A stretch of DNA of 64,000 nt from Natrinema ejinorense (GTDB lineage Archaea; Halobacteriota; Halobacteria; Halobacteriales; Natrialbaceae): the NCBI RefSeq assembly GCF_002494345.1, contig NZ_NXNI01000001.1:2976001-3040000 (forward strand), read 5' to 3'. Position numbers and translations under genes: made by a program. Below are positions 4,597 to 50,058 of this stretch, in pieces. The notes under the pieces are model-generated. The model searched no databases. It saw only the letters and a program-made list of their open reading frames with translations, and was not told where the DNA came from. Position 1 is the first letter of the stretch, and each line of letters begins with the position of its first letter.

Positions 4597-4680
4597 TATA
4601 GCAGCCACCGAACGTCACTGCACACCTGACCGCATGAGGCGTTGCGGTCAGTGTGTCGATCGGTTCAGTAGCTACTAGCG
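4597..4680 (-). repeat. 84-bp foldback element, copy A (degenerate)
   Basis: Imperfect palindrome in the intergenic region between the DUF6293-type regulator and the HAD gene. The outer arms (TATAGCAGCCACCGAA... and ...TTCAGTAGCTACTAG) are diverged. The inner stem TGACCGCA / TGCGGTCA is perfect and differs from copy B by a compensatory T-A to C-G change. Orientation is opposite to copies B and D. It lacks one base in the loop relative to copy B. Confidence 0.8.
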
Positions 4681-39302: not shown

Positions 39303-40011
39303 ATGACAGACACCCAGCAGACCGCACATGGCATCGACCTCGAAACGCTCGACGGGTTCGCCGAACACGCCGCCGAGAACCCCGACGCGGTCCAGCTCGG
39401 GCTCCGTGCGTCCGCGACCTATAGTAGCAACTGAAACGATTTACACACTGATCGCAACGTTGTCGTGCGATCAGGTGTGCAATGACTTTCAGTTGCTACT
39501 ATACGAGGGGACGGCCGCACACAGCCTGGCGAAGATCGACAGCTACGACCTCGGTGGCGAGACGATCCCTCGTGAAACGCGCGAATACACGATTCCGTAC
39601 GGAGGCTGGAAGGAAGTGTTGGACGCCGGTGGGTGGGTCGGCGCGACCGACCGGATGGAACCGATAGAAGTGGCGCTGTCGGCGCTCGCCGCCTGTATCA
39701 ACGTCGGCATCAGCATCAATGCCGCCGCCAACGGCGTGGACATCGAGCACCTCGAGACGCGCGTCGGAACCGATTTCGATCCCGCGGTTCTCTTCAGTCT
39801 CGAGGAACTCAAAGCGGCTGACTCGGTTTTCGAGAACCTCACCGCTGAGGTCGAGATCGACGGCGAGGATCTCGATCGGGACCTGATCGACGAATGGGCG
39901 CGGCGGGCACCCGTCTACACGTTCGTCTCCCTCGCTCAGGACGTCGATATAGCCATCAACACGCCCGCCGAGGTGGCGGGCGACGACTACCCGGTGACCA
40001 CCGACGAGTGA
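39303..40011 (+). pseudogene. OsmC-family gene disrupted by an 82-bp palindromic insertion
   Basis: The first exon-like part (39303-39419) encodes MTDTQQTAHGIDLETLDGFA... up to RASAT. It then runs into the foldback element and stops at TGA (39432-39434). The remainder (39504-40011) continues in a different frame as EGTAAHSLAKIDSYDLGGET ... WARRAPVYTFVSL. Removing 82 bp restores ATYEGTAAHS in frame, the expected OsmC sequence. OsmC/Ohr-family proteins reduce organic hydroperoxides or act as sulfur-transfer proteins. The catalytic-type Cys in ALAACINVGISINAAANG is present. The native enzyme is not made unless the downstream part is started separately. Confidence 0.9.
39420..39503 (+). mobile_element. 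84-bp foldback element, copy B (inserted in OsmC gene)
   Basis: Perfect 17-bp terminal inverted repeats, TATAGTAGCAACTGAAA (39420-39436) and its complement (39487-39503). Inside is an 8-bp perfect stem, TGATCGCA / TGCGATCA, with a 9-nt loop. The pre-insertion sequence inferred from the OsmC frame has a single TA at the junction, so the element proper is about 80 bp with a TA target duplication. It has no coding capacity for a transposase, so it must be mobilised in trans if it moves. Stops occur in two of three frames within each arm. Confidence 0.85.
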
Positions 40012-40697: not shown

Positions 40698-40781
40698 TAT
40701 AGTCGCCACTGAGAGTCATTGCACACCTGATCGCGCGACAACGCACCGATCAGCATGTAAATGGTTTCAGTGGCTACTATA
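40698..40781 (-). mobile_element. 84-bp foldback element, copy C (supplies a stop codon)
   Basis: Same length as copy B and in opposite orientation. Its arms (TATAGTCGCCACTGAGA and ...TTTCAGTGGCTACTATA) carry a C-G pair where copy B has A-T, a compensatory difference. It overlaps the 3' end of the minus-strand gene at 40767-41525, whose last codons (YSSH and TGA) are read from the element. Confidence 0.85.
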
Positions 40782-41525
40782 CCCGCCCGAGTTCGGCGAT
40801 CGGGCGGTGACTGCGTCGATCGACCGTGCATGGACGCCGGCGACGGCCTCGCGATCGTCCTCGTCCGTCCCCGTCCACCACGCGAGCCGGTCGATCTCGA
40901 GTGGCGAGTACGACGATGTCATCGCCAGCCACTCGCCGGACGCGATCGTCCGCAGAGCCGTCGTCGTTTCGAGGGGCGAGGACTCGAGTTCGGCGTCGAT
41001 GCGGTCGATCAGTGCGACGACCGGTGGGGCGGGCCTGATCGTCTCGACGCCCGCGAGCTGGCGCAGGTACTGGAACGTCGAGGGGCCGACGCCGGCGATC
41101 GAGCCGATGGGGTCTGCCTCGTACCGGTAGTGATCGGCCCTGCTCGCCCACTCGAGCAGTGCGTCGAGATCGTCGGCTTCCGGTCGCTCTGCGAGGACGC
41201 ACGCGGCCTCACAGAGGACGTGTCGTTTCCGCTGGGCACCGAAGGCGGCCACGAGTTCGTCGTCCTCGGGGTCGAGCGCGGCGAGGTCCCCGAAGGAGTC
41301 GACGCGGTCGCTCGCGACGAACGACTCGTGAAACCGGGCGACGGTAGGTGCGATGCCGTCGACGAACCCCTGGCCGGTCGTCGAGGCGGCGGCCTCCGCG
41401 AGGAGCAACGGGGGATCGTCGCCGGTCCAGCGCCGATACTCGCGGAACTCAGCCGCGAGCTCCTCGTAGGGCGTGCCGTTCGCATACGGCTCGAGGAGCG
41501 GCTCCACTGCCGTGTCGGGACTCAT
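40767..41525 (-). CDS. Uncharacterised protein with HhH-like segment; 3' end formed by foldback element
   Basis: A 252-residue soluble protein. The segment DPIGSIAGVGPSTFQYLRQL has the GVG turn and flanking helices of a helix-hairpin-helix, as in endonuclease III-type DNA glycosylases, and a segment before it (AAFGAQRKRHVLCEAACVLA) is helical. I see no catalytic Lys/Asp pair of the HhH-GPD family with certainty, so a DNA-repair role is only a suggestion. The start is the ATG at 41525; an upstream in-frame Met (41540) is possible. The final residues YSSH and the TGA derive from foldback element copy C, so the original C-terminus may have been longer. Confidence 0.65.
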   Translation of the reverse strand: MSPDTAVEPLLEPYANGTPYEELAAEFREYRRWTGDDPPLLLAEAAASTTGQGFVDGIAPTVARFHESFVASDRVDSFGDLAALDPEDDELVAAFGAQRKRHVLCEAACVLAERPEADDLDALLEWASRADHYRYEADPIGSIAGVGPSTFQYLRQLAGVETIRPAPPVVALIDRIDAELESSPLETTTALRTIASGEWLAMTSSYSPLEIDRLAWWTGTDEDDREAVAGVHARSIDAVTARSPNSGGYSSH

Positions 41526-41661
41526 ACGCGTTGTCCACACCTATCATACTGGGGACTGATAGCTGTACCGACCGGTTCGGGGCGTCGGCCGCCGGCCGCG
41601 TGTCCTCGGGTTTCCAGCAAGCAGGTCGGCACTACGGTCGGAATCCCCGAAGAAGAGAGCG

Positions 41662-42633
41662 CTACTCCGTCCCGTTCGTGATGGTCGTGTGCGCGCCGAT
41701 GAGCGCCCCCGCGAGATCTAGCTCCTCGAGATGGGTCCCCTCGTCGATGATCGAGCGGCGGATGTCGCCGTCTCGAACCGTCGCGTTCGGGAAGATGATC
41801 GTCTGCTCGAGCGTCGTTCCCTCGAGGGTCACGTCGTCCATAACGTGGACGTTCTCGCCGATGGTGGTGTCTTCCAGCGTCGCGGAGCCGGCGACGAGCG
41901 AGTCGCCATCGAGGTGCCAGGCGACGGCGTCGAGATAGCTCTCGGGGGTGCCGATGTCGAACCACGCGCCCTCGAAGGTGTAGGCGTAGGTGGGTTCGCG
42001 GTTCTGGAGCCACTGGACGAACCAGCCGGGCTCGTCGGGGTTGTTGCCGTCCTCGAGGTAGGTCTCCAGGAGATCGAGCGAGGTCCGTGGGAACGCATAG
42101 CAGGCGATCGAGACGAGCGTGCTCTTGGGATCGGCGGGCTTCTCCTGGAAGTCGACGACGCGGTCGCCCTCGAGATCGACGAGCCCGTAGGATTTGGCCT
42201 TCTCGCGGGAGCCGACGTCGTAGGCGGCGAGCGTGGGTGCGTCTCGCTCCTGAAACTCGTCGAGGAAGTCGGCGACATCGAAGCTGATCAGGTTGTCGCC
42301 GGCGATGATCAGGAGATCGTCGTCGACGTTCTCGCGGTCGATCAGCTGTGCGAGCGCGCCGACGACGCCGAACTTGTCGTCTTCCTCGGTCGTCTCCTCG
42401 ACCGAGAGTTGGGGTTTCTCGAACTCGCTGTCGGCGAGGTGAGCCTCGAAATCGGGAGCGAACCGCTCGTTGGTGCTGACGTAGACCTCCTCGATCCGAT
42501 CGTCAGCCTCGAGTTCCGCGAAGATGCGATCGACGACGGTCGACTCGCCGATCGGGAGAAACATCTTGGGCCGATGTTTGGTAATCGGCCACATTCGGGT
42601 CGCGTACCCGCCTGCGAGGACGACGGCCTTCAT
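41662..42633 (-). CDS. Sugar-nucleotide pyrophosphorylase (NDP-sugar, GlmU/RmlA-like)
   Basis: A 323-residue nucleotidyltransferase. The signature MKAVVLAGGYATRMWPITKH with RPKMFLPIG is the NTP-binding loop; DDLLIIAGDNLISFDVADFL holds the metal-binding Asp; YGLVDLEGDRVVDFQEKPAD and FEGAWFDIGTPESYLDAVAW complete the Rossmann core. The last ~60 residues are left-handed beta-helix repeats (SATLEDTTIGENVHVMDDVT), as in glucose-1-phosphate thymidylyl/uridylyltransferases of archaea. It would supply NDP-sugars for glycosylation or exopolysaccharide. No other sugar gene is adjacent. Confidence 0.88.
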   Translation of the reverse strand: MKAVVLAGGYATRMWPITKHRPKMFLPIGESTVVDRIFAELEADDRIEEVYVSTNERFAPDFEAHLADSEFEKPQLSVEETTEEDDKFGVVGALAQLIDRENVDDDLLIIAGDNLISFDVADFLDEFQERDAPTLAAYDVGSREKAKSYGLVDLEGDRVVDFQEKPADPKSTLVSIACYAFPRTSLDLLETYLEDGNNPDEPGWFVQWLQNREPTYAYTFEGAWFDIGTPESYLDAVAWHLDGDSLVAGSATLEDTTIGENVHVMDDVTLEGTTLEQTIIFPNATVRDGDIRRSIIDEGTHLEELDLAGALIGAHTTITNGTE

Positions 42634-49401: not shown

Positions 49402-50058
49402 ACCGGACGATAGGTTCGCGATGCGATAAAAGGATTCGTCTCGGATCGGGGTTCAGTATATAACGCGACTCGAGAAGTATTACGCTCCAGGCACCTGGTG
49501 GGTCGGAAACGTCCCTCGAGTCGCGCATCTCGCTCGAGGGAGGGTCGAACGAGCCGGCAAGGGAGGACGGAACCGGTCGACGCGATCAGTTCGTCGATCA
49601 AAGGGGTGTGACTCGAGGGCGGTCACCTGGATGCGATCAACGGTGGCCCGTGAGCAGTCATATCGGGTGGTCGACCCGAAAACCAGTGGGGCTGGGCGAA
49701 CGGAGCAGTGAACTCGACAGAAAGACGGAGCGTGCCGTTCCGGGAACACGGAACCGCCACGTCCTCCCCAGCCGATTCGTTCGCTCGTTACAGTCGCTCA
49801 CTCATCCCTCGCGTGGGGTCGTGCAGACGGTTCGCCGTCGGCGAACCGTCGCACAGCACGCGCCGCCGCATGCCGGTTGACCGATCAGCGTGATCCCTCG
49901 TCCCGTTCCAGGCAGGACGGCCGTTCTAGTCCCCCTTCAGCACGGACGGTGGGAGCGATAGTAACGACTGCGACTAGTTACGCACTGATGGCACAGCTGT
50001 CGTGCGATCAGGTGTGTGGTGACGTGGAATGGCTGTTATCGGTGGCGACGACTCGAGG
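49402..50058. other. Gene-free stretch with foldback copy D
   Basis: About 650 bp. It holds the helicase promoter at its left end, an isolated TATATAA (49457-49463) without an evident gene, a palindrome GACGGTTCGCC-GTC-GGCGAACCGTC (about 49828-49852) whose arms pair perfectly over 11 bp and could act as a terminator or other structured site, and foldback copy D at 49957-50040. No open frame shows haloarchaeal GC3 bias. Confidence 0.45.
49957..50040 (+). mobile_element. 84-bp foldback element, copy D (degenerate)
   Basis: Exactly 84 bp between GATAGTAACGACTG and ...GGCTGTTATC, same orientation as copy B. The central TCGTGCGATCAGGTGTG is identical to copy B, while the arms and the left half of the inner stem have accumulated mismatches. 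It lies 18 bp beyond the 3' end of the manganese transporter gene. Confidence 0.78.

Follow-up and report, generated by a model that had tools for sequence, protein, structure and literature searches.

The window, the whole stretch of 64,000 nucleotides analyzed here, holds four copies of a repeat of about 84 bp, and one of them lies inside an OsmC-family gene. The features discussed below are these:

Copy A, 4597 to 4680, minus strand: old, decayed copy in the opposite orientation to B
OsmC-family gene disrupted by copy B, 39303 to 40011, plus strand: start at 39303, with an 82-bp net insertion
Copy B, 39420 to 39503, plus strand: young, intact copy; the element proper spans 39422 to 39501; empty site in genomes G041, G019, and G010
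Flanks of copy B, TA at 39420 to 39421 and at 39502 to 39503: read as the target duplication
Copy C, 40698 to 40781, minus strand: copy of intermediate age in the opposite orientation to B; C10-G75 subfamily; empty site in G041
Copy D, 49957 to 50040, plus strand: old copy whose ends are degraded and whose left flank lacks conservation among relatives

The original prediction, made from the letters of the window, proposed four related foldback copies of about 84 bp, and we found all four at the coordinates listed above. It also described an asymmetric center that fixes an orientation; this center, GATCAGGTGTG, is on the plus strand in B and D and on the minus strand in A and C. The ends given for the family are fully perfect in copy B alone. 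The left end of copy C is TATAGTCGC, the ends of copy A are TATAGCAGC...GCTACTAGC, and those of copy D are GATAGTAAC...GCTGTTATC. The imperfect ends of A and D therefore mark them as decayed copies. In copy B, the outer arms are a perfect inverted repeat of 17 bp, and the single-stranded DNA has a predicted fold of -28.9 kcal/mol versus -8.3 +/- 2.1 for shuffled sequences (z = -9.7). Two paired differences from copy B had been pointed out, and both are correct: C-G for T-A in the inner stem of copy A, and C-G for A-T in copy C, which falls at outer-arm position 10. With at most one mismatch allowed, the motif TATAGTAGC is found 5 times in the window versus 0.9 expected. A 306-aa ORF at 40761-41681, which has no Pfam match, starts inside copy C and is probably a spurious frame or one with a false start.

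The 84-bp repeat is most simply read as an element of 80 bp, TAGTAGC...GCTACTA, together with a TA target duplication of 2 bp, a structure that is indistinguishable from an 82-bp insertion without duplication. Empty orthologous sites, the absence of which in relatives would have spoken against mobility, are present in other Natrinema genomes and show a net insertion of 82 bp with a single TA kept. Such sites are clean and retain one TA for copy B (G041, G019, and G010), for copy C (G041, a genome of the same species), and for two copies elsewhere in the source genome, L016 and L019. L009 has an empty site with one TA in one genome, and the sites of L006 and L018 are compatible with absence but less clean. 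G041 and several more Natrinema genomes are without the element at the position orthologous to copy A. At five other orthologous sites, the source genome and G041 both carry a copy, in the same orientation. Of 166 copies, 126 have a C before the element and 136 a G after it, and the preferred target is therefore C|TA|G. The element is thus multicopy, has been recently mobile, and was inserted at C|TA|G. It is short and non-coding and has terminal inverted repeats, as expected of a miniature inverted-repeat transposable element (MITE). Its presence or absence at orthologous sites and its TA target, with a duplication that is formally ambiguous, are those of MITEs of the IS630 type.

Copy B knocks out the OsmC-family gene. 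The gene's own frame ends at an in-frame stop inside copy B, while in G041 the gene is intact and its protein matches Pfam OsmC at 4.5e-9. The ORF at 39328-40011 is a by-product, an out-of-frame start fused to the real OsmC-family gene. Since 84 bp would make 28 codons, we considered an in-frame peptide-coding role; the net insertion of 82 bp led us to reject it for copy B. At another locus, L008 (G000:C1:2764756-2764839), a young copy is located where the genus-conserved flank stops. This flank is probably a gene, and the copy may alter its tail.

How abundant is the element outside the window? A whole-genome search with copy B, which had been suggested as a check on the family, returned 99 first-look candidates, 40 of which matched at E <= 3.7e-23. 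To these 40 are added copies A, C, and D, as well as about 20 more that have diverged. The 4.48-Mb Natrinema genome, of which the window had revealed only 4 copies, consequently contains at least 60, and this count is a lower bound. Genome-wide, TATAGTAGCNACTGA (at most two mismatches) occurs 72 + 77 times versus 8 + 13 for a reversed control. Eighteen copies, B among them, are 98-100% identical to B, which indicates recent spread, and many others are heavily decayed, which indicates earlier waves. We detected the element in 23 of 24 other sampled Natrinema genomes, in Haloarcula, Halomicrobium, Natrialba, Natronorubrum, and Halostella, and on Natronococcus plasmids; copies in named genomes are mostly from Natrinema. 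Phage records had no match to the element, and viral contigs had none to a short pattern. We found no description of the element in open-access papers; the subscription literature and ISfinder, which were outside the scope of this search, may record it.

Several arrangements of copies drew our attention. Lone terminal repeats in the source genome were considered as the ends of an autonomous element, but all 20 examined belong to diverged MITE copies. Three loci in G007 (L285, L286, and L287) are seeming head-to-tail dimers that contain N; these tandem copies were rejected as transposition intermediates because the N bases between them point to draft-assembly gaps. At L021 (1360-1584), a younger copy directly abuts the terminus of an older, decayed one, which suggests that element ends can act as targets.

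The MITE itself carries no transposase. The original prediction called for an insertion sequence (IS) with the same terminal repeats and TA target preference, and IS630-family elements of Natrinema answer this description. Full-length members (orfA/orfB, DDE_3, ~1.06 kb; mostly 1055-1059 bp with the flanking TAs included) do carry a transposase. They have the ends TATAGTA(A/G) (TATAGTAR), and 16 of 18 are preceded by C and 15 of 18 followed by G, giving the same C|TA|G target as the MITE. Their two reading frames match Pfam DDE_3 at 2e-39 and NCBIfam IS630 at 4.5e-40, well above cut-off, and the transposase is annotated "IS630 family transposase" in NZ_CP082248. In L177:932-1991 and its relatives, the transposase is split over two frames, and a full protein would need a frameshift.

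The tips of the MITE and the IS are common over 7-8 bp, and the likeness extends to ~29 bp per end. For the right end of the MITE, 21 of 29 positions are identical to the consensus of the IS right ends (p = 0.0006 with the shared tip set aside), and 24 of 29 are identical to a single IS, L187. The likeness of the left end is weaker: 19 of its 29 positions agree with the IS left end (p = 0.003), and over the whole 29 it matches the IS right end equally, or nearly equally, well. For the inner 26 bp of the MITE, we detected no counterpart in the compared IS ends. In 125 Natrialbaceae genomes searched with a right-end pattern, the matches listed fall into IS630-like right ends and MITE-like ones; among them is one IS (L187/L208) with the right end TATAGTAGCCATTAGAAG. 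In Haloarcula, Halomicrobium, and Natrialba, the left end of the element is IS-like, TATAGTAAC, and the right end is TATAGTAGCC. This left/right difference is that of the IS consensus, so part of the asymmetry that orients the element probably derives from the two different ends of an IS630 element.

In the source genome, we found no intact matching IS630, and the sole DDE_3 match is fragmentary, with a frame and ends like those of a different IS630 type. The source of the transposase is therefore past or external. Among 392 Halobacteriales genomes, a strict exact pattern detected no autonomous IS with the longer left terminal repeat of the MITE. Moreover, IS630 and MITE counts do not track between species: G005, G007, and G009 are rich in the element with no IS630 match, whereas G023 has a single element match alongside 55 IS630 matches. 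Because the counts do not track and an intact partner is missing from the genome, we infer mobilization in trans rather than observe it. The original idea of a MITE mobilized in trans nevertheless gains support from the copy number, the empty sites, the TA duplication, and the candidate IS630 partner. We propose, with a probability of about 0.87, that the element is an IS630-type MITE moved by an IS630-type transposase now absent from the genome, which would have bound the terminal repeats in trans.

We place the element among the IS630-type MITEs, as an addition to that class. Correia elements of Neisseria have TATAG ends and a TA duplication, and RUP of Streptococcus pneumoniae is a non-autonomous element attributed to an IS630 transposase. 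We liken both to the haloarchaeal element by description rather than sequence: Correia elements are also short multicopy MITEs but are longer and bacterial, and RUP is likewise bacterial. Closer in lineage are the MITEs and small mobile repeats (SMRs) of Haloquadratum walsbyi, which are similarly short and transposase-free, have inverted repeats and strain-specific insertions, and at times occur with no functional transposase in the genome (PMC3119063). One Haloquadratum MITE for which all transposase copies are broken provides a precedent for an absent transposase (PMC3119063). The main text of that study describes no IS630-type MITE (PMC3119063), and we set our element apart from the Haloquadratum set by description, not by element sequence.

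Could the element instead be a small mobile repeat of the SMR kind, moved by an unknown or non-IS630 transposase? The SMRs are of similar size (one is 80 bp) and their mobilization is unexplained (PMC3119063), and intact matching IS630 elements are missing both from the source genome and from several element-rich relatives. However, the tips, the end-specific similarity, and the C|TA|G target shared with Natrinema IS630 make this explanation unlikely. In addition, the definition of SMRs asks for terminal repeats with no relation to transposons and for the lack of a target duplication (PMC3119063), which excludes an element with IS630-like ends and a TA duplication. PATEs, which derive from IS605, are defined as having neither terminal inverted repeats nor a target duplication (PMC3119063); the element has the former and apparently the latter, and is not a PATE.

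Why do so many changes in the two arms come in pairs? The original prediction offered either selection on the folded single strand or RNA, or correction between the arms. The paired changes are genuine: across 142 distinct copies and 19 pairs, with position 10/75 left out, we counted 80 Watson-Crick double changes versus 5-20 in controls in which the partner was slid by 1-4 bases. Shuffling within divergence strata gave 35.5 on average and 52 at most. Much of the excess comes from a handful of common pairings, for example 33/51 and 10/75 (C-G in 76 of 166 copies and A-T in 58 of 166), and rare variants alone show a small excess. Most of the paired changes look like inherited subfamily markers, and this distribution would suit a history in which subfamily differences were purely inherited and the arms did not correct each other, a reading that we consider a serious contender, though somewhat on the doubtful side. 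Three observations run against it. L025, an old copy, carries C7-G78, whereas the pair in its G041 orthologue is A7-T78. Within one species, L019 (G000:C1:3687208-3687291) and L135 (G041) occupy the same CTA site with the copy inverted in place. Finally, outgroup copies have an unpaired A8, whereas most Natrinema copies have a paired G8. The paired change at L025 and the inversion at L019 point to a mutational mechanism, and the A8/G8 difference is a further hint in that direction.

Both L019 and its G041 orthologue have C63, a base that is rare in their subfamily (3 of its 58 listed copies). An independent second insertion at the L019 site is unlikely. The copy could also have been inverted by homologous recombination between the arms. 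Template switching between the arms can account for L025 and L019 alike without a functional RNA. Template switching between inverted repeats is described as giving rise to both arm homogenization and spacer inversion (PMC8604942), and it can yield compensatory changes without selection (PMC8794818). Correia elements are also reported to invert in place (review PMC10969869). Since the arms pair over most of the element, we infer that hairpin template switching would at times occur during replication. It would either copy one arm onto the other, producing paired changes, or flip the center in place.

Selection on the fold, with copies kept for a function of the folded single strand or RNA, could draw on the strength of the fold and on the 80 double changes, which include the inner stem. 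Yet copies are present or absent between strains, one disrupts a gene, and many are decayed. Single unpaired changes are common, the rare-variant excess is small, and the in-place inversion and the orthologue paired change fit arm-to-arm template switching. The window had no Rfam match at gathering score, and we found no evidence of the folded strand being transcribed or selected. We regard such a function as very improbable. Between the two explanations first offered, we favor arm correction over selection because paired changes occur in decaying copies, one distinguishes two orthologues, and another orthologous copy was inverted in place. More tentatively, and at slightly less than even odds, this MITE family may represent a natural, datable archaeal record of hairpin-arm template switching, with homogenized arms and in-place flips in unselected copies.

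Altogether, an abundant haloarchaeal repeat for which we found no description is now tied to a specific transposon family. The element accounts for strain differences and for at least one gene knock-out. Our work also carries a warning that paired changes in foldback repeats of this type are not proof of a functional RNA. Because many copies have known orientation and orthology, the family offers a usable system to measure template switching in archaea.
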